A stretch of DNA of 64,000 bases, taken from contig RPFO01000117.1 in NCBI GenBank assembly GCA_009746045.1, forward strand, positions 1 through 64,000. Direction: 5' to 3'. Positions 4,807-64,000 of the stretch are shown here, piece by piece. Position numbers and translations under genes: made by a program. The stretch comes from Mesostigma viride (Eukaryota > Streptophyta > Mesostigmatophyceae > Mesostigmatales > Mesostigmataceae). The stretch's first letter is position 1. Every line of letters begins with the position of its first letter. The notes beneath the pieces are model-generated. The model saw only the letters and a list, made by a program, of their open reading frames with translations, had not been told where the DNA came from and did no database searches.

Positions 4807-4908
4807 ATTAGAGTTTTGTTTAGCTTCTATTCTCGTCTACACATAATTCACACGAAGTACGCTTGCAAATACTTTATTACTATTTTGTTTGATATACTAC
4901 ACTAATAT

Positions 4909-11071: not shown

Positions 11072-11277
11072 AGTTACGTTAAATAGTGCCGGAACCTTTT
11101 GCCGCCTGAGGCAAATCGGTCCGTAACACTATTTTGCCCGGAATAACCACTTCCGAGCACCCAAGTTAATTCGGCCGAATTAACTTGGGTGCTCGGAAGT
11201 GGTTATTCCGGGCAAAATAGTGTTACGGACCGATTTGCCTCAGGCGGCAAAAGGTTCCGGCACTATTTAACGTAACT
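11072..11277. repeat. H1 palindrome, copy d
   Basis: The last 206-bp palindrome of the cluster. It ends in TAACT immediately before the right-hand GTGTG target duplication and the resumed satellite. Confidence 0.95.
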
Positions 11278-30251: not shown

Positions 30252-30357
30252 AGTTACGTTAAACAGTGCCGGAACCTTTTGCCGCCTGAGGCAAATCGGG
30301 CCGGAACACTATTTTGCCCGGAATAACCACTTCCGAGCACCCAAGTTAATTCGGCCG
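30252..30357. mobile_element. H1 left half-palindrome fused to retroelement copy 1
   Basis: The left 103-bp arm of H1 is present with a few substitutions (AAACAGTG for AAATAGTG, GGGCCGGAACAC for GGTCCGTAACAC), plus CCG of the centre. At 30357-30358 it passes into the integrase region of the retroelement. The right arm and right target duplication are missing, so the junction arose by breakage at or near the palindrome centre. Confidence 0.85.
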
Positions 30358-30885
30358 ACAATGCTGGCAGTGGGATCTGACCACCTGGCATGCACGTCTG
30401 AGTGCTGCCCCCCCTATTGCTGCTGCCACCACCTCTGCACTCACTTCATGCCCATAAAGGAAATGCAACTGCAAAGCAAGCTCCTGTAAACTGATCTGAG
30501 CATCCTCTGCTGGGGACACTCTGCACACCTTGGGAACCATAGATGTGAAGGTTGGTTTAGAGACATAATCTTCTGAAACCAGCTGTAGCACCTTTCCAGA
30601 ACTGCTCACTGCTCTGACAGTGGGGCATGCAGAAGAAGAAGGTGAAGCAGGCACACTCAAGCCAGCATGAGAGGGAGACTCACACTTCTTGCCGTAAGGA
30701 GGCCGCTTGCAGTCCTTGGGGTCACCGTGGGGCGGCCCGTGGCACTTGTGGCACAGGACGTCCAAATGCCCCAGCTCGTCCACGTTCTTGCGGCAGGTGG
30801 GCCGCAGGTGGTACTTCATGCCACAGCGGGTGCACCGCTGAGAAGACTTGTCCTCCTTGTCCTGCTTCTTGTTGTTGTTGTTGTT

Positions 30886-30933
<48 letters not shown>

Positions 30934-33612
30934 ACTGTTGTTGTTGTTGTTGCTGGAGCTGCCCCCCTTGGAGGGAGACTGCCCCTTACCCTTGCCCTTG
31001 CCCCAGCCCCTGCCCTTGCCCTTGCCCTTGCCCTTGCCCTTGCCCTTGCCCTTAAACATTTGTCCCAGCAGGGACTTGACTTCTGCCATAGTGACAGGTC
31101 TCTTGCTCCTGTCTTCCCTCTCCCTATCCTCCTCCTCCCTCTCTTCCCCCCTGACCCTCTTTACAGAGGTGCCCATGGCCCCCTGGCTAAGGGGAGCCAA
31201 GGCCAGCTTGATATAATCCAATGCCTCCTTCATGTCCTCCCAGTATTTTGCCATTCCTGTTGCAAGCATGGCGTAGGTGTTTTTGTCAAGTTTGAGTTTC
31301 TCAAGGAAGGAACGCAGCAAGAACTTGTGATCTAGCTGCTGGACATCAGGACGTGCTTTGATGGCTAGCTCATATTTCTTTGTCTCAGCCACATAGTCCA
31401 CTGATGTGACCCTGTATTCCTCTACCCACCTGAATGCCCCATAGATGTCCACAGATGAGGGGGTGGAGAGGAGGTCAGTTAGCTCCTTCATGAAAGCCTC
31501 CCAAACTGCCCTAGCCTGCGTGTCCTGCCACTTGGGATACCTACGCTGGAAGACAAGAATGAGATTCTGAATCTGAGAAGAGGACTGATGGTAAAAATCC
31601 CCCTGCATGAGAGATCCAAACCAATTCTTGACATTCAGTTCCTCCCTAGCCAGCTGCAGAGAGAGAAGTGCATGATTCCCCTGCTCCCTAGTATACCCCT
31701 CAGGCAGCCCCCTGACATTAATCCTATCCACAGGACGGTTTTCATTGTAAGTGGGTAGCCTAGAGGGGGATGCAGGGGGAGAGGGAGAAGATGGTGTTGC
31801 TGCTGCAGCATTCACAGGAGAGACCTGCTGAGAGGGAAGTGCTACTTGAGTGAGCTGAGCAGGATGGGCAAACATGGGCTGTGTAGGAGGGTTAGACAAC
31901 ATAGGGGTGGGCTGGTTGGGGGTGTGAGTGTGTGTCACTTCCCGCCTCCTGCTGCGGGCCTCCTCCCAATCATGGAAGGTGGGAGAGAGGGACACGTCAT
32001 CGTCAGTAGGGTTAGTAAGATTGTGATGCAACCAGGTAGGCAGAGTTAGCCACCTACCCGCCCCTCTCAGGATGGCGTTGTGTAGGAGCTCCAGCAAACG
32101 CACCAGACGCACCCTGCTGCCCTGCACCCTCCTCCCTGAGAGGAGAGCCTGCAGGGCAGGCAGCAGGTCGTCGCACACCCTGCGTGTGCCCTCTTGGAGG
32201 TTGGGTAGGCCCAGGATGTGCGTGATGATTGCACACACCAGGCTGCCCGCCTCCGCGACATGCATCTGCTGGCTCCTGTCGGCCAGCCCACGGAAGGAGG
32301 CTGTGGCTGTCTGTATGGCACGCCACACGGCCTCATCACGCAGGGTGATGAAGTCGCGACCTTGCAGGTCGCCCTCCAGCAGTGCTGGTTGCTGCCCAGC
32401 TGCGGTGGGACCCTGGGGCCCCTCCGGCCCTGCCAGGGACTTGTCCTTGGTGCGACTAGAGGGGGCCTGCCCCCCAGAGCCGCTGGAGGTGCCCGTGACA
32501 CCCTCCATGGGGGCTGCATCCCCCGCCAGCGCCGGAGGCGCCGGCGTCGCTGCCGGGGTCCCTGCGACCCCGGGCGCTTGTGTCGCCGCCGGGGTCCCTG
32601 CGACCCCGGTGGCCTCCTCAGCCACCTGGCCCCCCACGCGGGGCGGGGGAGCCTGCGGCTGAGGTTGGACCCTCTGACCTGCCAGAGGGTCCTGGGTGGC
32701 TTCACCACCCATGGGCGTGTTGGGGGCGTCTGCCGCCCCGCGCCCCGTCGCAGGCGGCATCGCAGCCGCCTCACGCCTATCCGGGCCCCAGCCAACTGGC
32801 GTGACTTGGGGCCACGCTGGCAACGGAGTCAGCGCGATCTCTGGTCTGGAGACCACGCGCAGCGCCTCTCTCTGGCGCTGCCTGGACGCCCACTGATCAA
32901 CAGTGCCGGGGTTGTGCCGCGGCCGATTGGCGAAACAGTACAGCCAAACCGCCACCTGAACCAGTGGGATCTGCATCCTAAGACGCCCCTCGATCAGCGA
33001 GTGCACCCGATGAACCTCTATCGCATGTATCTGCTCATCTGGAAGCAACTGAAAACGATCGAGCAAGATCCGGCCGTTCACCGCAATGAACGCCGGGATG
33101 TCGTCCTCCCCAAGGGGGAGAAGATGGGGTGGGCGCCCGAACATGACCGGGGGCGGAACATGTTCCCCATACCGGTCAATGTCCATGGTGGCCATCTGTC
33201 GGCCCACGGAAAGGTTGCCAGACGTCGCAGGTGTCTGCGACGAAAGCTCAAGCGAAGGCCGAAGCCTCGCAGGCGGCACCTCGCCATCCTCCTCGGAGGA
33301 ATCACTCCGCTCACGACCCCCGTCACCTGCGACGGGTGAACGTCGTGCCCGGGGGACCTGCCCCCCAGGTGCCATGGCGGACAAACCGCCAGTGGCAAAC
33401 GGCCGCCCGCTCGCCATCCCCCGGGCGCCGGGCCCCACCTGCGGGCCCCGACGCCTGGGTTGGTCAGCGACCACCGTGCGGAAGGGGACGTTGGGCGTCA
33501 CCCTCGCATCGGTGGTGGAGGGCGTGCCCTCCGGCGAAAGGCGGGGTGAGGTGCGCCTGGCAGGCGCCTTCCCCTTGTTGTTGTTGCCGTTGTTGCCGTT
33601 GTTGGACGCCAT
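30346..33612 (-). CDS. gag: Retroelement gag with zinc knuckles, fused to start of integrase (truncated)
   Basis: An open frame of 1088 residues when started at the ATG at 33612 (context ATATGG, first residues MASNNGNNG). The frame is open further upstream, but this ATG sits just inside the leader after the LTR. Order: Pro/Ala/Gly/Arg-rich basic N-terminus; a helical gag core that includes WFGSLMQGDFYHQ and LLRSFLEKLKLDKNTYAML; a (GK)n basic tract; a long poly-Asn tract; a CCHC zinc knuckle CX2CX4HX4C (residues 927-940, bases 30793-30834); a second CX2CX4HX5C knuckle; then the integrase HHCC zinc region (LHFLYGH, HCQHC). No stop separates gag from integrase, so they are one polyprotein. The frame ends at 30346 only because the element is broken by the half-palindrome. 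Gag packages element RNA into virus-like particles. Confidence 0.8.
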
Positions 33613-33654
33613 ATCTTTTTTTTTGCTTAAAAAAATATCGAACTTTTCAGTCCA
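33613..33654 (-). other. Retroelement leader with candidate primer-binding site
   Basis: Directly after the LTR end (CATCCAACT on the minus strand) comes TGGACTGAAAAG. It starts with TGG, as expected for a site complementary to the CCA end of a primer tRNA. I cannot name the tRNA. An A/T-rich stretch follows up to the gag ATG. Confidence 0.45.
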
Positions 33655-34093
33655 AGTTGGATGGAGACTAGGGACGACGAACAACTGCGAAAGCTGAGAG
33701 CGAATGATGATTGTATTACAATAATACAATGAGAGAGAGATGAAAGCTGAGGGCTCAGAATGGAACTGGGCAGACTCGGGTGCTGTGGCACTCCCCAGTG
33801 CTACGCCTATATGCCTATGGCGGTGCTACCTGCAGCACACGACCAGTGGACAAGTGTACACTGCAATGCCATGCGACCACGTCACTAGCATCCAGCTAAG
33901 ACTCGGCCCGTCAGGCCCGGCTACACCGGACCTGGCGGGTCGAGCTAGCACCTAGGAACAGTCTGGCACTAACCGCACATCTGTCCACATGACACCTCAG
34001 TACCGTACACCCTGCCGTACTGTACTGAGGTGTCCCGCTCAGCCGCGGTAGGCAATACGCGGCGCGCAGGCCGGAAATCCGTGTGTCAGCCTA
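33655..34093 (-). repeat. 5' LTR of copy 1 (439 of 455 bp)
   Basis: Near-identical to the LTRs at 42089-42543 and 56765-57219, but missing the outermost 16 bp (AGTTAGATGAGATGCT on the element strand). It contains a 44-base inverted repeat at 33991-34034 (GACACCTCAGTAC paired with GTACTGAGGTGTC) and a second one near the inner end around ATTGTATT/AATACAAT. Confidence 0.85.
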
Positions 34094-35269
34094 CAGTACC
34101 AACCCGCGGTAACGCAACTAGTTACGCAACAATGGTACTTTCCACGGCGACCGATCGAATGTTTGTTGCGTAACTACCAAGGACCGATACGGCCCAAAGT
34201 GGTGGCGAATTTCGTACTTGAAGTTCCGCACGAGACAGACTGACTGACTTGTTACGAGCTGACCACCGGCCCAACACGTAATGTACCTACAGAAGTACAG
34301 AACGTAAAAGGGGCCTGGCTGTGTAGTGTATACGTGCGAAGGTGGCCATGGCGGTGCGCGTTCCATGAAAACTTGCCTAATTTGTCGGCCGAAATGCAAA
34401 AAAGTTATGGAGATCGATGCTGTATGAAAGATACTCCAAAAGATGTTTTGTTGACGAAATATGCATTAGGTATGAAAGACCGCTGCCCTTCTTTAACCCA
34501 CGGTTTGCGAGGGGGTCTGATTCGCAAATCTGGCCGCGATGAATATATTAGATTGGCTTCTTGCCAGAGTGATAGCCAAGATTCCTGGTATTGAACGACG
34601 CAGAAGGGAGGGGTTTAAAGTGAGGAAATAGGAATCAAGCGAATTAGCTTTGATTTGTGGCCATTTCCGGTTTCCTTCGGAGGTAAAGTAAGCAGGCCTG
34701 CGCGAAGCGCATTCCAGCCTGCCATGGTTAACTCGCTTTCCTCGCGTGCCAGGCAGGTAATCAGGCCTGCTGCGGAAGGCTCTTTTTCTGCACCTCATCT
34801 ACCAATCTGTTTGCGCTTGAACAGTCCGTTATGGCTTGGTTTTAGCGTCATCTCCGGGATGTTCTTACCGTTTTGTTCGCCGTTTTGTTTCCTCGCCAAA
34901 TTTCCCGCAGCTTTTGCTATTTTGACTAACGTTTCCGGTGGCGTGCTTGTAAGATTGTCGAGAACTGGCCAGGAAGACATTGATTTTGCTGCACGTGCTT
35001 CATTTATTTTTTAAAGTTTGTATTAGAGAGTCTATATTGCGTAGTCAGGAAACCGACCTGACCTGCCTGGTGGCGGCGTCCTTGTTCCAAGAAGCGTGCA
35101 AAAGACTGGTCAGTTTCTAGGCGTTATTGCTGTTATTAACGGCATTGCTACATTTTAATCAGATTTTACTTTTCTCAGCATGCCATCTGCAAATTTTGTG
35201 GTCCATGCCTTACATGCATTCAGGCGTGCTGAATGCCTTGTAATCCATAAGCCCCGTGCTTTGTGGATG
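34094..35269. other. No recognisable gene
   Basis: Unique-looking DNA between retroelement copy 1 and the minisatellite. Open frames such as 34655-35014 (119 codons, plus) and 34493-34798 (minus) match nothing I recognise and overlap each other on opposite strands. A small inverted-repeat element (34120-34175) is listed separately. Confidence 0.4.
34120..34175. repeat. 56-bp inverted-repeat element with AGTTA/TAACT ends
   Basis: AGTTACGCAACAA at 34120-34132 is perfectly inverted at 34163-34175 (TTGTTGCGTAACT), leaving a 30-base centre. The ends share the AGTTACG/CGTAACT terminus of the H1 palindromes. The 5-bp flanks (CAACT and ACCAA) do not match, so no target duplication supports mobility. 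Confidence 0.55.
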
Positions 35270-35845
35270 GTGGTTGGACATTACTGTAGGAGGTGATGGC
35301 GTATGTGCGTGGATGGTGCTTGAATGGTGGGGGGCTGCAGCAATGCGTGTGTGGATGGTGGTTGGATGGCGAGGGATTGCTGCCATGCATGCACTAATGG
35401 TTGTTTGATGGTGGTGGGCTGCAGCCATGTGTGCGTGGATGATGGTTGGATGGTGGGGGGTTGCAGCCATGTGTTGTGCGTGGATGGTGGTTGGATTGTG
35501 GGGGGTTCAGCCATGCATGCGTGGATGGTGGTTGGATGGTGAGGTTTTGCTGCCATGCATGCGTGCCGATGGTGGTTTGATGGTGGGGGGTTGCAGCCAT
35601 GTGTGCGTGGATGGTGGTTGGAAGATGGGGGGTTGCAGCCATGTGTGCGTGGATGGTGGTTGGATGGTGGGGGGTGCAGCCATGCATGCGTGGATGGTGG
35701 TTGGATGGTGGGGGGATGCTGCCATGCATGCATTAATGGTTGTTTGATGGTGGTGGGCTGCAGCCATGTGTGCGTGGATGATGGTTTGATAGTGGGGGGT
35801 TGCAGCCATGCGTGCGTGGATGGTAGTTGGATGATGGGGGTGTAG
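35270..35845. repeat. 42-bp minisatellite (TGGATGGTGG type)
   Basis: About 13 imperfect units of roughly 42 bp built on GCAGCCATG, TGCGTGGATGGTGGTTGGAT and a G-run; for example TTGCAGCCATGTGTGCGTGG starts at 35591 and 35633. The same minisatellite reappears inverted at 36372-36562. Open frames across it are by-products. Confidence 0.9.
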
Positions 35846-35950
35846 GGAGTCCTTGATGGTGGGGATGTAGGGACTTCTTGATACTTCTAAGTCATGGATT
35901 ATAATTAATGGATTAAAGTAAGCTTACTGATTAAATGAGACGAAATTTAG
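35846..35950. other. Short unique spacer
   Basis: Contains a duplicated TGATGGTGGGGATGTAGGGA-like remnant of the minisatellite, then A/T-rich sequence leading into the pentanucleotide array. No gene. Confidence 0.4.
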
Positions 35951-36310
35951 TTCAATTGACAATTGACAATTGACAATTGAATTGACAATTCAATTGACAA
36001 TTCAATTGACAATTCAATTGACAACTCAATTGACAATTCAATTGACAACTCAATTGACAGTTCAATTGACAATTCAATTCAATCAATTCAATTCAATTCA
36101 ATTCAATTCAATTCAATTCAATTCAATTCAATTCAATTCAATTCAATTCAATTCAATTCAATTCAATTCAATTCAATTCAATTCAATTCAATTCAATTCA
36201 ATTCAATTCAATTCAATTCAATTCAATTCAATTCAATTCAATTCAATTCAAGTCAATTCAATTCAAGTCAATTCAAGTCAGTTCAGTTCAATTCAATTCT
36301 ATTCAATTTA
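35951..36310. repeat. (AATTC)n pentanucleotide array with CAATTGA prelude
   Basis: 35951-36085 consists of CAATTGACAATT-type units (10-12 bp). From about 36085 to 36250 these become pure (AATTC)n with roughly 33 units, then decayed units to 36310. The open frame 35970-36311, a repeating Gln-Phe-Asn-Ser-Ile chain, is produced by the repeat. Confidence 0.95.
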
Positions 36311-36371
36311 AATAATTCAATTCAACTTCGCATAGTCTAGCCGTAAATTTCTTGGATCATGAACAATGGGC

Positions 36372-36562
36372 AGTTGCAACCACCATCCATGCACGCATGG
36401 CTGCACCCCCCCACCATCCCACCACCATCCACGCATGCATGGCTGCAACCCCCCACCATCCCACCACCATCCATGCACACATGGCAGCAAATCCTCACCA
36501 TCCAACCACTATTTATCCACGCACGCTAGCTGCAGCCCCCAACCATCCAACCATCACAACCC
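36372..36562. repeat. 42-bp minisatellite, inverted arm
   Basis: About four units of the reverse complement of the 35270-35845 minisatellite (CCACCATCCA, GCATGGCTGCA; GGCTGCA steps at 36400 and 36442). Together the two arms can fold over the AATTC array as a long imperfect hairpin. Confidence 0.85.
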
Positions 36563-37404: not shown

Positions 37405-37825
37405 GAAACGCGCACGGTGCCAATTCACGCACTTCAGGTTGCACGGTGTGGTCGTGCGATTCTGAGAAGTGCGCACCCGGGGGGAAACCGGCCCCTTGCG
37501 CACTCCCTAGTTACGCACTCCCTAGTAAAGTCGATAGATTGCGTACCTACACCTTTGGAAATGGCATTGTTTTCTTTCAAACGCACACTCCAGGTTGCGC
37601 GCGGTGTGGTTGTGCGATTCTGAGAAGTGCGCACCCGGGGGGAAACCGGCCCCTTGCGCACTCCCTAGTTACGCACTCCCTAGTAAAGTCGATAGATTGC
37701 GTACCTACACCTTTGGATGGCATTGTTTTCTTTCAAACGCACACTCCAGGTTGCGCGCGGTGTGGTCGTGCGATTCTGAGAAGTGCGCACCCGGGGGAAA
37801 ACCGGCCCCTTGAGCACGCAAGTCG
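37405..37825. repeat. 156-158-bp tandem repeat, about 2.7 units
   Basis: GCGATTCTGAGAAGTGCGCA starts at 37456, 37614 and 37770. Units share CACCCGGGGG, ACTCCCTAGTTACGCACTCC and AAAGTCGATAGATTGCGTAC. Third-unit decay begins after 37800. Confidence 0.9.
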
Positions 37826-38497: not shown

Positions 38498-39341
38498 TAA
38501 TGCCTTGCCTCTCATGATCTTCTAGCCCAGCCAGATCAATAGCCTCACACCCTGGTTCATTGGCAAGACATGTGAACTGCTGATCCAGTAACAATGCCTC
38601 CACAGGGTAGTACCTGGCCTGAGCAATCAAGAGAGCCCTGAGCAACTGTGTCTTGTCCATTCCAGGTAATGGTTCAATGGTTGTGTACCTTGACCATGCA
38701 TCTTTAAGTGCCAAGTAAGATTGTCCTTTGATATGAAAGACATCTCCTACCACCCTGCCCTTGCTCTTAGTGGGGTAGCTACATGCCACTTAGGGGGTTT
38801 GGGTGCATTGAACTGACAATGCTGGCAGTGGGATCTGACCACCTGGCATGCACGTCTGAGTGCTGCCCCCCTATTGCTGCTGCCACCACCTCTGCACTCA
38901 CTTCATGCCCATAAAGGAAATGCAACTGCAAAGCAAGCTCCTGAAAACTGATATGAGCATCCTCTGAGGGGACACTCTGCACACCTTGGGAACCATAGAT
39001 GTGAAGGTTGGTTTAGAGACATAATCTTCTGAAACCAGCTGTAGCACCTTTCCAGAACTGCTCACTGCTCTGACAGTGGGGCATGCAGATGAAAGAGGTG
39101 AAGCAGGCACACTCAAGCCAGCATGAGAGGGAGACTCACACTTCTTGCCGTGAGGAGGCCGCTTGCAGTCCTTGGGGTCACCGTGGGGCGGCCCGTGGCA
39201 CTTGTGGCACAGGACGTCCAAATGCCCCAGCTCGTCCACGTTCTTGCGGCAGGTGGGCCGCAGGTGGTACTTCATGCCACAGCGGGTGCACCGCTGAGAA
39301 GACTTGTCCTCCTTGTCCTGCTTCTTGTTGTTGTTGTTGTT

Positions 39342-39383
<42 letters not shown>

Positions 39384-42044
39384 ACTGTTGTTGTTGTTGT
39401 TGCTGGAGCTGCCCCCCTTGGAGGGAGACTGCCCCTTACCCTTGCCCTTGCCCCAGCCCCTGCCCTTGCCCTTGCCCTTGCCCTTGCCCTTGCCCTTAAA
39501 CATTTGTCCCAGCAGGGACTTGACTTCTGCCATAGTGACAGGTCTCTTGCTCCTGTCTTCCCTCTCCCTATCCTCCTCCTCCCTCTCTTCCCCCCTGACC
39601 CTCTTTACAGAGGTGCCCATGGCCCCCTGGCTAAGGGGAGCCAAGGCCAGCTTGATATAATCCAATGCCTCCTTCATGTCCTCCCAGTACTTTGCCATCC
39701 CTGTGGCAAGCATAGCGTAGGTGTTTTTGTCAAGTTTGAGTTTCTCAAGGAAAGAACGCAGCAAGAACTTGTGATCTAGCTGCTGGACATCAGGACGTGC
39801 TTTGATGGCTAGCTCATATTTCTTTGTCTCAGCCACATAGTCCACTGATGTGACCCTGTATTCCTCTACCCACCTGAATGCCCCATATATGTCCACAGAT
39901 GAGGGGGTGGAGAGGAGGTCAGTTAGCTCCTTCATGAAAGCCTCCCAAACTGCCCTAGCCTGCGTGTCCTGCCACTTGGGATACCTACGCTGGAAGACAA
40001 GAATGAGATTCTGAATCTGAGAGGAGGACTGATGGTAGAAATCCCCCTGCATGAGAGATCCAAACCAATTCTTGACATTCAGTTCCTCCCTAGCCAGCTG
40101 CAGAGAGAGAAGTGCATGATTCCCCTGCTCCCTCGTATACCCCTCAGGCAGCCCCCTGACATTAATCCTATCCACAGGACGGTTTTCATTGTAAGTGGGC
40201 AACCTAGAGGGGGATGCAGGGGGAGAGGGAGAAGATGGTGTTGCTGCTGCAGCATTCACAGGAGAGACCTGCTGAGAGGGAAGTGCTACTTGAGTGAGCT
40301 GAGCAGGATGGGCAAACATGGGCTGTGTAGGAGGGTTAGACAACATAGGGGAGGGCTGGGGGGGGTGTGAGTGTGTGTCACTTCCCGCCTCCTGCTGCGG
40401 GCCTCCTCCCAATCATGGAAGGTGGGAGAGAGGGACACTTCATCGTCAGTAGGGTTAGTAAGATCATGATGCAACCAGGTAGGCAGAGTTAGCCACCTAC
40501 CCGCCCCTCTCAGGATGGCGTTGTGCAGGAGCTCCAGCAAACGCACCAGACGCACCCTGCTGCCCTGCACCCTCCTCCCTGAGAGGAGAGCCTGCAGGGC
40601 AGGCAGCAGGTCGTCGCACACCCTACGTGTGCCCGCTTGGAGGTTGGGCAGGCCCAGGATGTGCGTGATGATTGCACACACCAGGCTGCCCGCCTCCGCG
40701 ACGTGCATCTGCTGGCTCCTGTCGGCCAGCCCACGGAAGGAGGCTGTGGCTGTCTGTATGGCACGCCACACGGCCTCATCACCCAGGGTGATGAAGTCGC
40801 GACCTTGCAGGTCGCCCTCCAGCAGTGCTGGTTGCTGCCCAGCTGCGGTGGGACCCTGGGGCCCCTCCGGCCCTGCCAGGGACTTGTCCTTGTTGCGACT
40901 AGAGGGGGCCTGCCCCCCAGAGCCGCTGGAGGTGCCCGTGACACCCTCCATGGGGGCTGCATCCCCCGCCAGCGCCGGAGGCGCCGGCGTCGCTGCCGGG
41001 GTCCCTGCGACCCCGGGCGCTTGTGTCGCCGCCGGGGTCCCTGCGACCCCGGAGGCCTCCTCAGCCACCTGGCCCCCCACGCTGGGCGGGGGAGCCTGCG
41101 GCTGAGGTTGGACCCTCTGACCTGCCAGAGGGTCCTGGGTGGCTTCACCACCCATGGGCGTGTTGGGGGCTTCTGCCGCCCCGCGCCCCGTCGCAGGCGG
41201 CATCGCAGCCGCCTCACGCCTATCCGGGCCCCAGCCAACTGGCGTGACTTGGGGCCACGCTGGCAACGGAGTCAGCGCGATCTCTGGTCTGGAGACCACG
41301 CGCAGCGCCTCTCTCTGGCGCTGCCTGGACGCCCACTGATCAACAGTGCCGGGGTTGTGCCTCGGCCGATTGGCGAAACAGTACAGCCAAACCGCCACCT
41401 GAACCAGTGGGAGCTGCATCCTAAGACGCCCCTCGATCAGCGAGTGCACCCGATGAACCTCTATCGCGTGTATCGCCTCATCTGGAAGCAACTGAAAACG
41501 ATCGAGCAAGATCCGGCCGTTCACCGCAATGAACGCCGGGATGTCGTCCTCCCCAAGGGGGAGAAAATGGGGTGGGCGCCCGAACATGACCGGGGGCGGA
41601 ACATGTTCCCCATACCGGTCAATGTCCATGGTGGCCATCTGTCGGCCCACGGAAAGGTTGCCAGACGTCGCAGGTGTCTGCGACGAAAGCTCAAGCGAAG
41701 GCCGAGGCCTCGCAGGCGGCACCTCGCCATCCTCCTCGGAGGAATCACTCCGCTCACGACCCCCGTCACCTGCGACGGGTGAACGTCGTGCCCGGGGGAC
41801 CTGCCCCCCAGGTGCCATGGCGGACAAACCGCCAGTGGCAAACGGCCGCCCGCTCGCCATCCCCGGGCGCCGGGCCCCACCTGCGGGCCCCGACGCCTGG
41901 GTTGGTCAGCGACCCCGTGCGGAAGGGGACGTTGGGCGTCACCCTCGCATCGGTGGTGGAGGGCGTGCCCTCCGGCGAAAGGCGGGGTGAGGTGCGCCTG
42001 GCAGGCGCCTTCCCCTTGTTGTTGTTGCCGTTGTTGGAAGCCAT
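38498..42044 (-). pseudogene. gag: Retroelement gag-integrase pseudogene (copy 2)
   Basis: Starts at the ATG at 42044 (MASNNGNNNKGK, a 9-bp shorter GNN repeat than copy 1). Compared with copies 1 and 3 it has single-base losses near 41863, 41911, 40358, 38967, 38868 and 38770, so gag and integrase are split over several frames: 40286-41860, 38898-40412 and 38460-38789 hold the main pieces. The poly-Asn and (GK)n tracts are shorter than in copy 1. The CCHC knuckle is intact. The integrase part keeps HHCC, VVGDVFHIKGQ (first Asp) and LLLDQQFTC (second Asp) but stops before the Glu. It cannot make a working protein. Confidence 0.85.
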
Positions 42045-42088
42045 ATCTTTTTTTTGCTTGTAAAAAAAATATCGAACTTTTCAGTCCA

Positions 42089-42543
42089 AGTTGGATGAAG
42101 ACTAGGGACGACGAACAACTGCGAAAGCTGAGAGCGAATGATGATTGTATTACAATAATACAATGAGAGAGCGATGAAAGCTGAGGGCTCAGAATGGAAC
42201 TGGGCAGACTCGGGTGCTGTGGCACTCCCCAGTGCTACGCCTATATGCCTATGGCGGTGCTACCTGCAGCACACGACCAGTGGACAAGTGTACACCGCAA
42301 TGCCATGCGACCACGTCACTAGCAACCAGCTAAGACTCGGCCCGTCAGGCCCGGCTACACCGGACCTGGCGGGTCGAGCTAGCACCTAGGAACAGTCTGG
42401 CACTAACCGCACATCGGTCCACATAACACCTCAGTACCGTACACCCTGCCGTACTGTACTGAGGTGTCCCGCTCAGCCGCGGTAGGCAATACGCGGCGCG
42501 CAGGCCGGAAATCCGTGTGTCAGCCTAAGCATCTCATCTAACT
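42089..42543 (-). repeat. 5' LTR of copy 2 (455 bp)
   Basis: Full-length LTR. On the element strand it begins AGTTAGATGAGATGC and ends GTCTCCATCCAACT-like (here CTTCATCCAACT). It is flanked outside by GCAGT and satellite. It contains the same internal inverted repeat as the other LTRs. Confidence 0.85.
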
Positions 42544-53388: not shown

Positions 53389-53508
53389 AGTTACGTTAAA
53401 TAGTGCCGAATTAACTTGGGTGCTCGGAAGTGGTTATTCCGGGCAAAATAGTGTTACGGACCGATTTGCCTCAGGCGGCAAAAGGTTCCGGCACTATTTA
53501 ACGTAACT
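53389..53508. mobile_element. H1 palindrome with internal deletion
   Basis: A 120-bp element flanked by TGCGC at 53384-53388 and 53509-53513, a clean 5-bp target duplication. It keeps the first 19 or so bases (AGTTACGTTAAATAGTGCC) and the whole right arm; most of the left arm is gone, with the 4-base string GCCG at both edges of the lost segment. Removing one target copy and the element restores an unbroken satellite monomer. Confidence 0.92.
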
Positions 53509-53862
53509 TGCGCGGTGTGTGTACGTGTGTGTGCATGCGGGCAATTGCGTGCATGGTGTGTGTACGTGTGTGTGCAGCCGCCCCTTGCGTGCGCGGTGTG
53601 TGTACGTGTGTGTGCACTCGCCCCTTGCGTGCGCGGTGGATGTACAGGTGTGTGCAGCCGCCCCTTGCGTGCATGGTGTATGTACATGTGTGTGCAGCCG
53701 CCCCTTGCGTGCGCGGTGGATGTACATGTGTGTGCACCCGAACCTTGCGTGCATGGTGTGTGTACCTGTGCGTGAAGTCGCTCCTTGCGTGCATGGTGTG
53801 TGTACGTGTGTGTGCAGCCGCCCCTTGCGTGCATGGTGTATGTACATGTGAGTGCCGTTGCC
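53509..53862. repeat. 40-bp satellite, block 4
   Basis: About nine monomers between two palindromes. Includes the ACATGTGTGTGCACCC variant and the TACCTGTGCGTGAAGTCGCT variant, which also occurs in blocks 1, 2 and 3. Confidence 0.95.
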
Positions 53863-54068
53863 AGTTACGTTAAATAGTGCCGGAACCTTTTGCCGCCTGA
53901 GGCAAATCGGTCCGTAACACTATTTTGCCCGGAATAACCACTTCCGAGCACCCAAGTTAATTCGGCCGAATTAACTTGGGTGCTCGGAAGTGGTTATTCC
54001 GGGCAAAATAGTGTTACGGACCGATTTGCCTCAGGCGGCAAAAGGTTCCGGCACTATTTAACGTAACT
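53863..54068. mobile_element. Solo H1 palindrome (206 bp)
   Basis: A complete single palindrome with the target duplication TTGCC at 53858-53862 and 54069-54073. The empty site would read CCGTTGCCCCTTGCG, an ordinary satellite monomer. This is the clearest evidence that the palindrome itself is an insertion unit. Confidence 0.95.
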
Positions 54069-54100
54069 TTGCCCCTTGCGTGCGCGGTGTATGTACGTGT
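54069..54100. repeat. 40-bp satellite, short block 5
   Basis: Thirty-two bases of satellite between the solo H1 palindrome and the family 2 cluster; ends with CGTGT, the left target duplication of that cluster. Confidence 0.95.
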
Positions 54101-54314
54101 AGTTATTATAAATAGTGACGGAACCTTTTTGCCACTTGGGCAATTAGGTCCGTCACTATTTATCCGGCGAAAACCACTCGCCGGCATCTATTCCGCGTTA
54201 AGTTCACGTGAACGTGGCGCGGAATTGATGCCGGCGAGTGGTTTTCGCCGGATAAATAGTGACGGACCTAATTGCCCAAGTGGCAAAAAGGTTCCGTCAC
54301 TATTTATAATAACT
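54101..54314 (+). repeat. H2 near-palindrome, copy a
   Basis: 214 bp with ends AGTTATTATAAAT and ATTTATAATAACT. The arms match except for a few central mismatches (CTATTCCGCGTTAAG against CAATTCCGCGCCACG) around TTCACGTGAA. These mismatches let orientation be read. Confidence 0.93.
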
Positions 54315-54512
54315 AAAACGTCGTAGTGTGGGGGCCGATATCTATCGTACCGCTAATGCCTACTGCAGTACCGAATCTCGCCTTAACGATATTCCAACCG
54401 GGCATATTTTCCCTTCTGGCACTTTCGTTTGGCCTTCTGGTATCAATTCCTTCCGGTATTCGGAAATACCTGTGTCACCACAGGGATTCGAACCCCCGAC
54501 TTACGAGGTCTT
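54315..54512 (-). repeat. S2 spacer with tRNA 3'-half, copy a
   Basis: 198 bp with ends AAAACGTCGT and ACGAGGTCTT. On the minus strand, 54512-54473 reads as a tRNA 3' half: it begins in the anticodon loop (AAGACCTC), then a variable loop, GGTTCGAATCC, and acceptor strand ending GGTGACA. The other 158 bases are unique, and no tRNA 5' half matches that acceptor. Confidence 0.7.
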
Positions 54513-54726
54513 AGTTATTATAAATAGTGACGGAACCTTTTTGCCACTTGGGCAATTAGGTCCGTCACTATTTATCCGGCGAAAACCACTCGCCGGCATC
54601 TATTCCGCGTTAAGTTCACGTGAACGTGGCGCGGAATTGATGCCGGCGAGTGGTTTTCGCCGGATAAATAGTGACGGACCTAATTGCCCAAGTGGCAAAA
54701 AGGTTCCGTCACTATTTATAATAACT
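54513..54726 (+). repeat. H2 near-palindrome, copy b
   Basis: Identical in plan and orientation to copy a. Confidence 0.93.
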
Positions 54727-54924
54727 AAAACGTCGTAGTGTGGGGGCCGATATCTATCGTACCGCTAATGCCTACTGCAGTACCGAATCTCGCCTTAACG
54801 ATATTCCAACCGGGCATATTTTCCCTTCTGGCACTTTCGTTTGGCCTTCTGGTATCAATTCCTTCCGGTATTCGGAAATACCTGTGTCACCACAGGGATT
54901 CGAACCCCCGACTTACGAGGTCTT
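54727..54924 (-). repeat. S2 spacer with tRNA 3'-half, copy b
   Basis: Same sequence and orientation as copy a. The tRNA-like half is at 54924-54885. Confidence 0.7.
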
Positions 54925-55138
54925 AGTTATTATAAATAGTGACGGAACCTTTTTGCCACTTGGGCAATTAGGTCCGTCACTATTTATCCGGCGAAAACCA
55001 CTCGCCGGCATCTATTCCGCGTTAAGTTCACGTGAACGTGGCGCGGAATTGATGCCGGCGAGTGGTTTTCGCCGGATAAATAGTGACGGACCTAATTGCC
55101 CAAGTGGCAAAAAGGTTCCGTCACTATTTATAATAACT
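54925..55138 (+). repeat. H2 near-palindrome, copy c
   Basis: Same orientation as copies a and b. Flanked on both sides by the tRNA-half end of S2, so it is the centre of a larger inverted structure. Confidence 0.93.
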
Positions 55139-55336
55139 AAGACCTCGTAAGTCGGGGGTTCGAATCCCTGTGGTGACACAGGTATTTCCGAATACCGGAA
55201 GGAATTGATACCAGAAGGCCAAACGAAAGTGCCAGAAGGGAAAATATGCCCGGTTGGAATATCGTTAAGGCGAGATTCGGTACTGCAGTAGGCATTAGCG
55301 GTACGATAGATATCGGCCCCCACACTACGACGTTTT
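55139..55336 (+). repeat. S2 spacer with tRNA 3'-half, copy c (inverted)
   Basis: Reverse complement of copies a and b. The tRNA-like half reads forward at 55139-55178. Confidence 0.7.
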
Positions 55337-55550
55337 AGTTATTATAAATAGTGACGGAACCTTTTTGCCACTTGGGCAATTAGGTCCGTCACTATTTATC
55401 CGGCGAAAACCACTCGCCGGCATCAATTCCGCGCCACGTTCACGTGAACTTAACGCGGAATAGATGCCGGCGAGTGGTTTTCGCCGGATAAATAGTGACG
55501 GACCTAATTGCCCAAGTGGCAAAAAGGTTCCGTCACTATTTATAATAACT
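55337..55550 (-). repeat. H2 near-palindrome, copy d (inverted)
   Basis: The central mismatches are in reverse order compared with copies a-c, so this copy is inverted. It ends TAACT before the right CGTGT duplication. Confidence 0.93.
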
Positions 55551-56764: not shown

Positions 56765-57219
56765 AGTTGGATGGAGACTAGGGACGACGAACAACTGCGA
56801 AAGCTGAGAGCGAATGATGATTGTATTACAATAATACAATGAGAGAGCGATGAAAGCTGAGGGCTCAGAATGGAACTGGGCAGACTCGGGTGCTGTGGCA
56901 CTCCCCAGTGCTACGCCTATATGCCTATGGCGGTGCTACCTGCAGCACACGACCAGTGGACAAGTGTACACTGCAATGCCATGCGACCACGTCACTAGCA
57001 ACCAGCTAAGACTCGGCCCGTCAGGCCCGGCTACACCGGACCTGGCGGGTCGAGCTAGCACCTAGGAACAGTCTGGCACTAACCGCACATCGGTCCACAT
57101 GACACCTCAGTACCGTACACCCTGCCGTACTGTACTGAGGTGTCCCGCTCAGCCGCGGTAGGCAATACGCGGCGCGCAGGCCGGAAATCCGTGTGTCAGC
57201 CTAAGCATCTCATCTAACT
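56765..57219 (-). repeat. 3' LTR of copy 3 (455 bp)
   Basis: Same length as the copy 2 LTR. Element-strand ends are AGTTAGATGAGATGC and CATCCAACT. GCAGT lies just outside at 56760-56764. A 44-base inverted repeat at 57101-57144 is conserved in all three LTRs and could be a transcript hairpin near the polyadenylation region. Confidence 0.88.
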
Positions 57220-58276
57220 CCCATTATGTTTTCCTTTCAGGTTGAAGGCTAGCGACTTCAAGCCTGACCCTGCCCAGCTAGGAGACTGACTCCAAGCTGA
57301 CTGAGGTGCTGAGCAACTGACACCCATACTGCAACATCTGGACTGAAAAAGATGGGCCCCAGAACTCGTGCAATACTTGTGATGGCATCACGTTTAGCTC
57401 AACATGCCCGGGGAGTTCCTCCTCCTCGCGAGCTCACAAGGGAGATAGCTATGCCTGTCTGCCTATCCAGGGAGTGCACCACCAGCCAAGAAGCCATTGT
57501 AAAAATGCCAAGGTAACCGTTTAAGAGGTTCCATGTTGTTCCATCATCATCGCCCACTCAGAGAAAAATACCCAGCCAGGCTGGGTCAACTGAGCTCAGG
57601 TTACCTGCAACCTGAGGACAGTGGACAGGTTTATTGCACCCTGCACTGTCCATGTTGTACCTGCACAACATGTGAGGACCAGCCACCCCTGCCCTGCACA
57701 GAGGGGGCTGAAGTCCGAGTGACAGGTGACAGGACTATGACATCCTGGACCTGGCCACATTGCACCTGCACAACGTGGGAGACCAGCCACCCCTGCCCTG
57801 CACATGGGTGACTGAAGTCCTGGTGACAGGTGACAGGAATATTTCATCCTGCACCTGTGCTGAGCACGTTGTACTAGACAACATGACAGCACCCATGCCT
57901 TACTGCCACTGAACAGTAAGGCCAGGTGGCCCAGGATATCCACAGTGAACTGGGGTCCTGGGTAACCACCTGTCAAGGGAGCTTTGACCCTCCACTTGAA
58001 TGGGGGCACCTGAGCCACTGAGCTCAAGGCCATTCCACCAAGGCATACGCCCTAGGGAATAAAGGTGTGAGATACATCCCATGCCCACCTATGAAGGTGT
58101 GCATAACGAAATTCCATGGTGTTGAGAAAATCAAAACAGATTTTATTGGGCATAGGGCACGCAGATGTATGAAAAACAGACTCCAACCAACCCCCCTGCT
58201 GGAAGCCACAACCTACCCCTTGGACCTGCCCAAGGGGTACTGGGTGACCTAGGCGGCCCTGGTGAACAGGACCCTG
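57220..58276 (-). other. Retroelement 3' untranslated region, with polypurine tract
   Basis: Lies between the RT-RNase H stop and the 3' LTR. Next to the LTR the element strand reads GAAAGGAAAACATAATGGG, purine-rich as expected for plus-strand priming. A 104-bp tandem duplication (GACCAGCCACCCCTGCCCTG at 57677 and 57781) lies inside. An open frame at 57596-58033 (minus, 145 codons) spans the duplication and matches no family; I do not call it a gene. Confidence 0.6.
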
Positions 58277-59735
58277 CTAGGCGTCCCCCCTATGGGGCAG
58301 GGTTGCCTGCTTGCCATAGGGGTTCATCAAGTGGTACAACAGCTGATATTGTTCAGCTGCCTGCTGAGGCACTTTAGTGAGTGCATCAGCAGCGTTGTGT
58401 TTGTCCTCCACGTGACGGGTGGACTCCCAGTAGGTGGACTCCTGTTTCAGGACCACCCAGTCAAGATCAGTGTGGACAGCATAGGGGTTAGCAAGGAAAC
58501 TGAGGACTGACTGACTGTCAGTGAGCAAGTGTGCCACCACCCCAGCATTGCTGCCTGCTTGCATCTGCAACCAAACCAGCACATGATTCAAGTACCTGGC
58601 ATGAAGCACTGCTGACACCACTGCCCTGCACTCAGCAGCATTGCTGCTGACAGCCTTGCGTCTATGCAACCGGCTGTACCATGAAATGAGAGACAAGGGT
58701 GCATCATCATTCTGCACAAAATACAAGCCTGACTCCCTTGCCTGCAACTTGGTAATCTGCCTGGACTCCATGGAACTATCCATCATAGCTTGGATGTGAA
58801 TGGTTTTGTGGAGATCCAAGGAGTGCAAGATAAGGGGAGGGCCCTCCTGGAGAGTTTTGGTGATGGCTTTGTGACCTACTTGCATCAAGACATCATCATC
58901 AACTCTGCTAACCACAGCCAGGTGAGGTGCACACGTTGAGCACAACCACCCCAGCTTGCCTCTAATGGTAGGACAGGCTCCAGGTTTGATTTTTGTTTGC
59001 AAAACCTCCAAGCAGCTGTGCATGTAATCATTGGGAGAGTAGAGTGCACACACCCACTGGTTTTGATGCTGCTGGAGTTGTAACATTGTGCCACAAAATT
59101 TTATGGCAGTGGTGCCCAGCTCTACTTGCTTGCCAATCTCAAAATGCTGTGACACTTGTTGAATAAAATCATCCACAGCACGCCTTGGCCCAGCAATCAG
59201 CTGATCATCCCCATGCCACACAAAGGTGAGAATGCCATGAGGGTGTGGGACCACAAAGAAGCAAGGGTCTATGTCATCATATCTAGCCCCTAACTTTTCA
59301 AACACAGCCTGAGCTGACATCCTGAAAATGCGAGGAGCTGATTGCAGCCCTTCAACACCTATGTTAGCTTTCAGGTACTGCTGAGGGATGTGTTTTGCCC
59401 AAACTCTGGGAGTGGAGACTACGTACACCTGACCATGCCACACTTGTTGTGCTATCTCAGGTGAGCCTTTCAGGAAAGCCCTTTTAATGTCTGTAGCCTT
59501 ACAGATATAGTCATCCCCATCATTGAGATGACCCACAAAGACAGACAGCAAGATTTTTAGGGATGTTTGCTGAATGCCTGGCGTGTACAACTCTGCCTCT
59601 GTCAGATCAGTGGTGCCCTTGAACTCTGTCACACAAGGTCTAGCATGAAAGATGACTGACCCATCTGCTGCTGGCTTATGTTTACACACAAACTTCAGGC
59701 GCAAGTGCTTGCACCCTGCAGGCTTTTTGTCAATA
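58277..59735 (-). CDS. pol: Retroelement reverse transcriptase-RNase H
   Basis: Copia-type RT followed by RNase H, about 485 codons to the stop at 58277. The frame is entered upstream of the first possible initiator: PIDKKPAGCKHLRLKFVCKH, just before 59700, matches the start of copia RT domains, so this is the continuation of the upstream frame after a -1 shift. Numbering from 59704: KATDIKRAFLKG (69-80, first catalytic Asp 72); FVWHGDDQLIAG (161-172, catalytic Asp pair 166/167 in an HGDD box instead of YVDD, a variant I recall from marine protist copia elements); RNase H acidic residues D309, E358, D396 (LLTDSQS) and D440 (HNAADALTK, the copia-typical end). It copies element RNA into DNA in virus-like particles. 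No internal stop or frameshift is seen, so it may be functional if the frameshift upstream is programmed. Confidence 0.88.
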
Positions 59736-62037
59736 GGTGTGACAGGGGAGTATGAGAAGGACTAAGAGGATCTGGCACTACCCATTCTTCCCTGGCCTTG
59801 TTAAAGGCCTCCACCCATTTTAGGAATCCTATGTGTGTGCGACAGTCTTGCTCTATCTGTTCATAAGAAAGAGGAGACATTTTAGCCACATCATGCTTGC
59901 CCAATCCAAATGAGTTGGGATGAAGTTTTTGGTTGTGAACCAGGTCTGCCACACAGGGTTCTTGCCCTGGGGCATACTTGGGTGTAGCAAATTTTACAGA
60001 AGCAATGTTGGTGTTAAGAAGTTTTTCAAGAGAAATTTTGAAATGATTCAGATCAACACCACCCATGTCCTGGATGGATAGTCTATCACTGGATATGAGG
60101 ACACCAGGGTAACAGAGAAAAGGATCCCCCAATAAAGCATTCCCTTTATAACCTTCCAAGACCTGAAAAGGAGTGGGGATACCGAGTATAGTCAACATGA
60201 CCTGACCTAATACCTTGAGGGATGACTGCCCTGAGAAATCAGCCACATGGTGCCAGGGTGAAGGTTCCAAAGGCAAATGGGGCACAGCCAGGGCACTGAT
60301 AATGCTGACCTGGGCTTGTGTGTCCACTGCAACCATAAATGGGCTATTGTCATTCTGCCCAACCTTCCCCACCTTAGCTGATCCTGCAGCAGTTTGAGCT
60401 TTGGCTCTATGAGCTGCTTGTAAAATGCGAACAGCGTCTGCTAGGCTGCGTTTGGAAGGTGCAGCTAGTGGCTGAGCTATGTTCACACTTGTAGAGGTGA
60501 TAGGTTGCTGATCACCTGTTTTGCCAATGTGACCCTCTGCTGCAGGGGGCCAATCCTGCAGTGACTGCCTGCAATCATCAAGGGTGACCTGGGTGTCACA
60601 GTGGGTGTGGCTCTCACACTCACCAGTGGGTGTTCCAAACAACCACTCACTGGGCAACGCTGGGATGCCAGGCAACTGTACAGGGCTGTCGGCCAACAGC
60701 TCTTCCTCCTCTGCCACGTCTGACACAGTTGGAAAATACAATTTCATCCTGTGAGGTGAACACCTGTGAATTTTTCCCGTGTCATTGTGTTTAACTAACA
60801 CTGTCCTGCCAGTGGTGTTAAACTTTAGGATGGTGGCTGGCCCATGCCAGGTACCCACCTTGCCTAGTCCCGACTCCTTGTAGAATAGGACCTGATCCCC
60901 TTCTCTGAAGGTGGGACGTGGATGCTTTGCATCCTTGACAGCTAACCTGCTAGCTGTCTGTGCTCGCTGTGCGTTGTAGAGGGCTAGTACCTCAGGTGGA
61001 TAAATGCCTGCATGCAATCCATCTGGTGTAATGACCACCCCTTGTGGGGTTTTCATGAGTGGCCTCCTGTTGAGGACTTGGCACAACCTGGTGGACCACA
61101 GAGCTCTGTCAGCATAGGACCCACTGTCAGCCAGCAGATTGCCATCTTCTTTGGCTACAAGGGTTTTAATGGACCTGATGGCCCTTTCAATAATGCCTTG
61201 CCTCTCATGATCTTCTAGCCCAGCCAGATCAATAGCCTCACACCCTGGTTCATTGGCAAGACATGTGAACTGCTGATCCAGTAACAATGCCTCCACAGGG
61301 TAGTACCTGGCCTGAGCAATCAAGAGAGCCCTGAGCAACTGTGTCTTGTCCATTCCAGGTAATGGTTCAATGGTTGTGTACCTTGACCATGCATCTTTAA
61401 GTGCCAAGTAAGATTGTCCTTTGATATGAAAGACATCTCCTACCACCCTGCCCTTGCTCTTAGGTGGGGTAGCTACATGCCACTTAGGGGGTTTGGGTGC
61501 ATTGAACTGACAATGCTGGCAGTGGGATCTGACCACCTGGCATGCACGTCTGAGTGCTGCCCCCCCTATTGCTGCTGCCACCACCTCTGCACTCACTTCA
61601 TGCCCATAAAGGAAATGCAACTGCAAAGCAAGCTCCTGAAAACTGATCTGAGCATCCTCTGCTGGGGACACTCTGCACACCTTGGGAACCATAGATGTGA
61701 AGGTTGGTTTAGAGACATAATCTTCTGAAACCAGCTGTAGCACCTTTCCAGAACTGCTCACTGCTCTGACAGTGGGGCATGCAGATGAAAGAGGTGAAGC
61801 AGGCACACTCAAGCCAGCATGAGAGGGAGACTCACACTTCTTGCCGTAAGGAGGCCGCTTGCAGTCCTTGGGGTCACCGTGGGGCGGCCCGTGGCACTTG
61901 TGGCACAGGACGTCCAAATGCCCCAGCTCGTCCACGTTCTTGCGGCAGGTGGGCCGCAGGTGGTACTTCATGCCACAGCGGGTGCACCGCTGAGAAGACT
62001 TGTCCTCCTTGTCCTGCTTCTTGTTGTTGTTGTTGTT

Positions 62038-62082
<45 letters not shown>

Positions 62083-62412
62083 ACTGTTGTTGTTGTTGTT
62101 GCTGGAGCTGCCCCCCTTGGAGGGAGACTGCCCCTTACCCTTGCCCTTGCCCCAGCCCCTGCCCTTGCCCTTGCCCTTGCCCTTGCCCTTGCCCTTAAAC
62201 ATTTGTCCCAGCAGGGACTTGACTTCTGCCATAGTGACAGGTCTCTTGCTCCTGTCTTCCCTCTCCCTATCCTCCTCCTCCCTCTCTTCCCCCCTGACCC
62301 TCTTTACAGAGGTGCCCATGGCCCCCTGGCTAAGGGGAGCCAAGGCCAGCTTGATATAATCCAATGCCTCCTTCATGTCCTCCCAGTACTTTGCCATTCC
62401 TGTGGCAAGCAT
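59695..62412 (-). CDS. pol: Retroelement zinc knuckle-integrase-protease polyprotein segment
   Basis: An open frame of 905 codons (first Met internal; the true protein continues upstream into gag). Order: (GK)n tract, poly-Asn, CCHC knuckle 143-156 (bases 61945-61986), second Cys/His knuckle, integrase zinc region H266-x4-H271 and C298-x2-C301, integrase core D326, D379, E409 (QGIIERAIRS, the usual Q-G-x-x-E-R context), then FREGDQVLFYKE and WHGPATIL, a C-terminal integrase module. After the integrase comes an aspartic protease-like domain: VDTQAQVSII (697-706) and, about 60 residues on, NALLGDPFLCYPG. These match the DTGA and hydrophobic-hydrophobic-Gly elements of retropepsins, except Gln for Gly. 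No DTG/DSG motif exists between the knuckles and the integrase. The frame ends at 59695, and RT continues in the -1 frame. Confidence 0.85.
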
Positions 62413-64000
62413 AGCGTAGGTGTTTTTGTCAAGTTTGAGTTTCTCAAGGAAGAACGCAGCAAGAACTTGTGATCTAGCTGCTGGACATCAGGACGTGCTT
62501 TGATGGCTAGCTCATATTTCTTTGTCTCAGCCACATAGTCCACTGATGTGACCCTGTATTCCTCTACCCACCTGAATGCCCCATATATGTCCACAGATGA
62601 GGGGGTGGAGAGGAGGTCAGTTAGCTCCTTCATGAAAGCCTCCCAAACTGCCCTAGCCTGCGTGTCCTGCCACTTGGGATACCTACGCTGGAAGACAAGA
62701 ATGAGATTCTGAATCTGAGAAGAGGACTGATGGTAGAAATCCCCCTGCATGAGAGATCCAAACCAATTCTTGACATTCAGTTCCTCCCTAGCCAGCTGCA
62801 GAGAGAGAAGTGCATGATTCCCCTGCTCCCTAGTATACCCCTCAGGCAGCCCCCTGACATTAATCCTATCCACAGGACGGTTTTCATTGTAAGTGGGCAA
62901 CCTAGAGGGGGATGCAGGGGGAGAGGGAGAAGATGGTGTTGCTGCTGCAGCATTCACAGGAGAGACCTGCTGAGAGGGAAGTGCTACTTGAGTGAGCTGA
63001 GCAGGATGGGCAAACATGGGCTGTGTAGGAGGGTTAGACAACATAGGGGTGGGCTGGGTGGGGGTGTGAGTGTGTGTCACTTCCCGCCTCCTGCTGCGGG
63101 CCTCCTCCCAATCATGGAAGGTGGGAGAGAGGGACACTTCATCGTCAGTAGGGTTAGTAAGATCATGATGCAACCAGGTAGGCAGAGTTAGCCACCTACC
63201 CGCCCCTCTCAGGATGGCGTTGTGCAGGAGCTCCAGCAAACGCACCAGACGCACCCTGCTGCCCTGCACCCTCCTCCCTGAGAGGAGAGCCTGCAGGGCA
63301 GGCAGCAGGTCGTCGCACACCCTGCGTGTGCCCTCTTGGAGGTTGGGCAGGCCCAGGATGTGCGTGATGATTGCACACACCAGGCTGCCCGCCTCCGCGA
63401 CGTGCATCTGCTGGCTCCTGTCGGCCAGCCCACGGAAGGAGGCTGTGGCTGTCTGTATGGCACGCCACACGGCCTCATCACCAGGGTGATGAAGTCGCGA
63501 CCTTGCAGGTCGCCCTCCAGCAGTGCTGGTTGCTGCCCAGCTGCGGTGGGACCCTGGGGCCCCTCCGGCCCTGCCAGGGACTTGTCCTTGTTGCGACTAG
63601 AGGGGGCCTGCCCCCCAGAGCCGCTGGAGGTGCCCGTGACACCCTCCATGGGGGCTGCATCCCCCGCCAGCGCCGGAGGCGCCGGCGTCGCTGCCGGGGT
63701 CCCTGCGACCCCGGGCGCTTGTGTCGCCGCCGGGGTCCCTGCGACCCCGGTGGCCTCCTCAGCCACCTGGCCCCCCACGCTGGGCGGGGGAGCCTGCGGC
63801 TGAGGTTGGACCCTCTGACCTGCCAGAGGGTCCTGGGTGGCTTCACCACCCATGGGCGTGTTGGGGGCGTCTGCCGCCCCGCGCCCCGTCGCAGGCGGCA
63901 TCGCAGCCGCCTCACGCCTATCCGGGCCCCAGCCAACTGGCGTGACTTGGGGCCACGCTGGCAACGGAGTCAGCGCGATCTCTGGTCTGGAGACCACGCG
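62413..64000 (-). pseudogene. gag: Retroelement gag, frameshifted and incomplete (copy 3)
   Basis: Continuation of the polyprotein toward its N-terminus. Compared with copies 1 and 2 it has one base missing near 62451 (CAAGGAAGAACGC) and one near 63481 (TCATCACCAGGG), each breaking the frame, so the open pieces are 62373-63470 and about 63480-63997. Conserved gag core text (WFGSLMQGDFYHQ, EGYTREQGNHALLS) is clear. The N-terminus lies beyond the window. This copy therefore combines an intact RT frame with a broken gag and would need gag supplied by another copy. Confidence 0.82.

Follow-up and report, generated by a model that had tools for sequence, protein, structure and literature searches.

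Four insertions in a 64,000-nucleotide stretch of Mesostigma viride DNA (referred to below as the window) are real insertion units with 5-bp target duplications, and all of them are built from a palindrome, P, that also serves as the terminal repeat of longer elements. The solo copy of P, described in the first-pass annotation as a perfect palindrome, is identical to its own reverse complement at 206 of 206 bases. Insertions with both edges kept are four in the window (n = 4), and their surroundings are a 40-bp GT-rich satellite (Table 1). The matching 5-bp flanks quoted for them earlier were all correct, and the claim that removal of the element together with one flank restores the satellite also holds, the joined flanks matching other satellite blocks without a mismatch in 4/4 cases. 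Short, hairpin-shaped pieces of DNA have inserted into this repetitive stretch, apparently at a recent time.

Empty counterparts of the insertion sites were evaluated in the best six rows for each site. Site 53863 had exact counterparts (147/147) in six of the best six rows, site 54101 in four (147/147), site 9953 in three (235/235), and site 53389 in two (235/235). The ceiling of 147 bp arises because sites 53863 and 54101 are just 32 bp apart; the two top-scoring rows of site 54101 were gapped matches extending over P sequence. When both flanks were retained, the exact rows showed a 5-base gap. A GT run makes the flanks of the array at 9953–11277 equal over 7 bp, yet exactly 5 bp are missing at its empty sites. 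For two satellite positions drawn at random, the probability of a 5-bp agreement is 0.022, which corresponds to ~2e-7 for 4/4. Pairs of AGTTA...TAACT spaced 60–8000 bp apart occur 153 times in the window, and equal 5-bp flanks were found in 4/153, namely the four insertions. This rate places AGTTA 11th of 870 low-count 5-mers. Since ten of the 870 end 5-mers rank higher, the flank count alone is not decisive, and the argument rests on the empty sites.

Two related families, A and B, share the layout P-S-P, in which P (206 bp in A, 214 bp in B) flanks a non-coding core (S_A, 132 bp; S_B, 198 bp). The five full P_A copies (starting at 9953, 10291, 10629, 11072, and 53863) are all identical, while of the four P_B copies those at 54101, 54513, and 54925 are identical and the one at 55337 is their exact reverse complement. 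The earlier view of the mobile unit as a perfect palindrome is right for family A and has to be relaxed for family B, where 206/214 positions are self-complementary and the eight non-complementary positions lie near the centre. P_A and P_B are homologous (153/224 aligned positions, 68%, with 28 gaps). The three copies of S_A are identical, as are the three copies of S_B; between the two cores, the sole match at the search threshold was a 26-bp tRNA-like segment (84.6% identity) containing an exact B box. Both core types have flush, complementary ends (AAAACC/GGTTTT in A, AAGAC/GTTTT in B), with complementarity scores reached by 1.35% (A) and 3.3% (B) of 2000 shuffles.

An inverted dimer, P-S-P-S'-P, centred on a P, was found in both arrays. 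In array A, this dimer (9953–10834) is a perfect palindrome of 882 bp; in array B (54513–55550), it has 500-bp arms and a 38-bp centre. The remaining array parts show no strict alternation, the core order being S,S',S' in A and S,S,S' in B. The solo P could have jumped by itself, or it could be left over from recombination between two P within one element, as a solo LTR is. As to the statement that no transposase or RT is encoded, it stands for the two arrays, inside which there is no frame of at least 150 aa, but not for the window, which contains RT-bearing copia-like elements.

Table 1. Positions of palindromes, cores, copia-like parts, and RNA polymerase III-type signals in the window.
Feature	Position	Strand	Remarks
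Family A array, P-S-P-S'-P-halfP-S'-P	9953–11277	.	duplication GTGTG
Core S_A, 132 bp	10159–10290	-	B box at 10254 on - strand
tRNA-like structure across P_A/S_A junction	10456–10544	+	16.2 bits vs Rfam gathering score 29
Core S_A	10497–10628	+	B box GGTTCGAATCC at 10523; ends AAAACC...GGTTTT
Half P_A (positions 102–206)	10835–10939	+	tandem duplicate beginning at palindrome centre
Core S_A, third copy	10940–11071	+	
Half P_A (positions 1–107, three mismatches)	30252–30358	+	truncated at centre, abuts copia-like fragment
Copia-like 5' LTR	42089–42543	-	AGTTAGATG...CATCCAACT, then PBS TGGACTGAAAAG
P_A with internal deletion	53389–53508	.	duplication TGCGC
TTGCC duplication, left copy	53858–53862	.	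right copy 54069–54073
Solo P_A, exact 206-bp palindrome	53863–54068	.	target duplication TTGCC
Family B array, P-S-P-S-P-S'-P	54101–55550	.	duplication CGTGT
P_B, 214 bp	54101–54314	+	
Core S_B, 198 bp	54315–54512	-	B box at 54484 on - strand
Core S_B, second copy	54727–54924	-	
Exact A-box consensus match in P_B	55105–55115	+	52 nt upstream of B box; 26/3000 shuffles
tRNA-like structure across P_B/S_B junction	55120–55178	+	17.4 bits vs Rfam gathering score 29
Core S_B, third copy	55139–55336	+	B box at 55157; GTTTT end at next P
Copia-like 3' LTR	56765–57219	-	purine-rich tract GGAAAACATAATGGG before, duplication ACTGC after
Copia-like reading frames	58277–62487	-	RVT_2 E=4.8e-10; rve core E=0.02, below cut-off

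Each P arm is predicted to fold as two tandem hairpins of ~55 nt and ~20 nt, the shorter with the shared loop AACCAC. Folding z values of the arm were −2.84 (A) and −9.57 (B) for DNA, and −3.30 (A) and −8.01 (B) for RNA. In a consensus fold alignment of three sequences, including a half copy of A, both sides of 4/28 predicted pairs were changed with pairing kept in one sequence, and one sequence failed to pair at 7/28. The covariation term (+0.78) was unfavourable; support of this alignment for the predicted arm hairpins is thus modest. The fold of the S_A core is unremarkable (z −1.13) and that of S_B remarkable (z −4.09). The centre of P_A lies between positions 103 and 104, and in 3/3 incomplete copies one edge falls no more than 4 nt from it; in the copy at 53389, P_A positions 1–20 are joined to 103–206, the missing stretch ending at positions 103–107 because of a 4-bp microhomology. 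Formation of hairpins by the DNA inside cells would lead to such truncations, and we regard the edges at the centre, few as three are, as marks left when hairpin tips were cut or copying turned around.

The copia-like element of the window has the marks of Ty1/copia, an RVT_2 reverse transcriptase and an LTR with PBS and PPT. The LTR (455 bp, AGTTAGA...TCCAACT) is 99.3% identical between copies. A match to rve in the second copia-like frame reached 15.6 bits, vs a Pfam cut-off of 32.6 (E=0.02). The flanks ACTGC/ACTGC represent a 5-bp duplication, read across two copies ~14 kb apart (one supplying its 5' end, the other its 3' end) with a one-base shift possible, and the empty site was matched 235/235 in the best six rows, all exact. 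The presence of ACTGC at both the 42.5-kb and the 56.8-kb LTR ends is probably due to one insertion duplicated together with a satellite block. Partial copies of the element (n = 3; 30357–34093, 38498–42543, and 56765–64000) are 98–99% identical, and LTR positions 76–119 (57101–57144) form a 44-bp inverted repeat that is ~82% self-complementary. A PDB sequence search with one copia frame returned low-complexity matches only. Other repeats in the window include a frame at 339–1589 with a weak LINE-type zf-RVT match (23.8 vs cut-off 27.5 bits), probably a LINE end; a foldback-like structure at 35263–36556, whose inverted arms contain 42-bp GT/GGATG-rich tandem repeats and whose centre is CAATT-rich; and tandem units at 3977–4303 (153 bp, 2.1 copies) and 37430–37817 (158 bp, 2.5 copies).

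The ends of P and of the copia-like LTR are of the same kind (AGTTR...YAACT), and both go with a 5-bp duplication. Compared with the LTR/integrase end signal TGTTRNR...YNYAACA given in PMC3601003, P_A and both copia-like LTRs fit at 6/6 of positions 2–7 and P_B at 5/6, and the outermost base of P_A, P_B, and the copia-like LTRs shows the same A/T exchange. TARE1, as presented in PMC3701649, is an example of a non-TG copia LTR with a 5-bp duplication. The first-pass annotation had found no family that the unit matches, a judgement that lacks support in this form, as the ends and the duplication length match those of the resident copia-like LTRs and larger P-S-P elements have the palindrome as their terminal repeat. 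Full homology between P and the copia-like LTR was not found, the match being reached by ~4% (P_A) and 86–87% (P_B) of shuffles, and comparison of P and S with this LTR revealed no convincing shared sequence apart from the ends. A 15/17-bp match of S_B (55174–55190) to the LTR, one among eight comparisons, was reached by 0/300 shuffles.

P-S-P elements resemble TRIMs and copia solo LTRs. Identical repeats bound a short non-coding core, solo repeats occur, the target duplication has the partner's length (5 bp), and the ends are those of the resident copia; unlike TRIMs, the terminal repeats are palindromic, there is no ordinary PBS or PPT, and cores are present in both orientations. The first 6 nt next to P contain no TGG in 6/6 cores, unlike the copia-like LTR, which has TGG directly behind it; one S_A orientation has TGG from nt 7, which could conceivably be a displaced PBS in that orientation. 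Before P, the last 15 nt of 6/6 cores contain 6–8 purines and end in TT, vs 12/15 purines in copia. Lacking an ordinary PBS and PPT beside P, P-S-P is not a proper TRIM, and the lack of TGG and of a purine tract in 6/6 cores makes the ordinary tRNA-primed route unlikely.

We give about an even chance to the reading that families A and B are non-autonomous P-S-P elements for whose integration the copia-like integrase acts in trans. P would serve as the terminal repeat, palindromic in A and nearly so in B, and would carry nested hairpins; S would be a small non-coding core that resembles a portion of an RNA polymerase III gene. The resident copia-like integrase would recognise the AGTTR...YAACT ends and insert linear DNA with a 5-bp stagger cut. 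Of the steps in this reading, integration of P through a copia-type integrase has the best support, and we infer it with a confidence that is likewise near the midpoint; five common end bases are weak evidence alone. Copying is perhaps begun by fold-back of the element (hairpin self-priming), with no tRNA involved. Self-priming would explain together why PBS and PPT are absent, why the palindromes are exact, and why inverted dimers exist; the dimers are not unique to it, since recombination between palindromes could equally make them.

In the main rival explanation, which is possible though doubtful, P is the collapsed TIR pair of a DNA transposon that makes 5-bp duplications and has its transposase gene somewhere beyond the window; two MITEs with S carried between them would make up the composite P-S-P, and the arrays would have been enlarged by recombination. 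P does have the terminal inverted repeats, exact target duplication, and absence of coding capacity of a MITE, and the lack of frames of at least 150 aa within the arrays and of an ordinary PBS and PPT fits this origin. There is also a precedent in Made1, a near-perfect palindromic MITE with two 37-bp TIRs around 6 bp (PMC1784062). Made1, too, is a non-autonomous mobile unit; unlike the palindromes described here, which are 206–214 bp long, make 5-bp duplications, and form core-bearing arrays, it is 80 bp long and has a mariner partner, and P-S-P arrays do not figure in the description compared (PMC1784062). No transposase was found in six Pfam-scanned frames, of 152 frames of at least 150 aa (many in satellite), and the sharing of ends and duplication length with the resident copia-like LTRs argues against a DNA transposon. 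We know of no DNA transposon superfamily that combines 5-bp duplications with AGTTA ends, which also speaks against this explanation.

A rolling-hairpin DNA replicon, in which a parvovirus-type P primes its own copying and integration is secondary, appears improbable. Such a replicon is expected to produce inverted dimers sharing a central P and flip/flop of the centre, and we did observe that each array contains P-S-P-S'-P sharing a P, that every arm has nested hairpins, and that P_B is present in both orientations (3/4 and 1/4). Parvovirus terminal palindromes are similar in having nested hairpins in a long palindrome and in giving rise to inverted dimers that share the palindrome. They differ from the elements described here in that the latter have 5-bp duplications and that the six Pfam-scanned frames contain no replication gene; exact 5-bp duplications are untypical of rolling-hairpin replicon integration and count against this explanation. 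Moreover, the arrays deviate from strict inverted alternation, and inversion via palindrome recombination yields the same arrays.

Sequences resembling RNA polymerase III signals were found in both families. Exact GGTTCGANTCC boxes occur seven times in the window, once in each of the six S cores and a seventh time within the tRNA-like sequence at 4739–4807. An A box in P_A was not above shuffles (481/3000). Acceptor pairing is 7/7 in both families (one G-U in B), a value that 21/5000 shuffles attained for A and 110/5000 for B; the value for B follows widening of the search range, since a first, narrower range gave 9/5000 (A) and 2680/5000 (B). The B junction scored 21.7 bits with the mascRNA family, under the 42.5 required, and ARAGORN found no intact tRNA gene. 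The sequence at 4739–4807 is tRNA-Ser-like, with a 7-bp acceptor and A-box-like and exact B-box sequences, apparently without an anticodon arm; its Rfam tRNA score (21.9 bits) is under the gathering score, and it follows directly on a (CCCTACA)n telomere-like tract.

A SINE-like element, in which S and part of P make up a Pol III gene of tRNA origin that a LINE has retroposed, would fit the exact B box in 6/6 S copies, the exact A box in P_B, the TTTT that closes S', and the tRNA-like pairing that spans both junctions. We consider it very improbable: there is no 3' tail, the outer ends being TAACT with P complete on either side of the arrays; the A box of family A is insignificant; and tRNA is not recovered by ARAGORN and reaches only 16–17 bits in Rfam vs the gathering score of 29. 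An assembly or read artefact (foldback), of which perfect palindromes are classic products, is hardly credible, since 5-bp duplications with exact empty sites (4/4) are unexpected from foldback reads and since a diverged half copy and the homologous family B (68%) exist.

Integration in trans by the copia-like integrase may be set beside elements described elsewhere. Fungal GalEa copia elements have no PBS and carry a Conserved Hairpin Site thought to serve transposition, and are thus a precedent for a PBS-less copia-type element with a hairpin; as summarised in PMC5445492, their hairpin stands right after an ordinary 5' LTR and they contain coding domains, whereas here the terminal repeat itself is the hairpin and nothing is encoded. 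Retrozymes are likewise small, non-autonomous, and bounded by terminal repeats, but their LTRs bear hammerhead ribozymes (outlined in PMC9695139). The Rfam matches listed, with E values of up to 10, included no hammerhead or other ribozyme family. Membership of any other known RNA family was rejected as well, since matches to miRNA families in Rfam were generic hairpins, far under the gathering scores. Introner elements of Amoebophrya, with inverted repeats of 8–20 nt at introns and direct repeats of 3–5 nt (PMC7789003), are similar in having inverted repeats, short direct repeats, and no enzyme of their own; unlike P-S-P, they have no long palindrome or terminal-repeat arrays in the descriptions compared. 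In the titles and opening lines of abstracts that were listed, including those listed for palindromic MITEs, transposons, and LTRs, no comparable element was described. Pattern scans of viral contigs gave no match, and a short pattern (15 fixed bases) hit at least 120 stretches in genome contigs, the matches listed being prokaryote records and judged to be due to chance.

A more far-reaching form of the copia-dependent reading, which we put forward tentatively and think rather unlikely, is a retro-parasite whose palindromic terminal repeat replaces the tRNA primer and the PPT: a Pol III-type RNA would fold back and so prime itself for a copia-type RT, and the copia integrase would insert the product, recognising its AGTTR...YAACT ends. 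Every round of copying would rebuild the opposite palindrome arm, leading to inverted dimers. If this were true, a mobile element would require just an end signal, a hairpin, and a small promoter.

The long perfect palindromes with exact empty sites are useful for studies of palindrome stability. If integration in trans by the copia-like integrase is correct, a retroviral-type integrase would move perfect palindromes without the usual replication signals, and the minimum needs of an LTR element would be revealed. Hairpin-primed copying has been proposed as a step in the ancestry of LTR elements (as set out in PMC3601003); if self-priming is also true, the P-S-P elements of M. viride would provide a testable present-day case of hairpin-primed, LTR-type copying.
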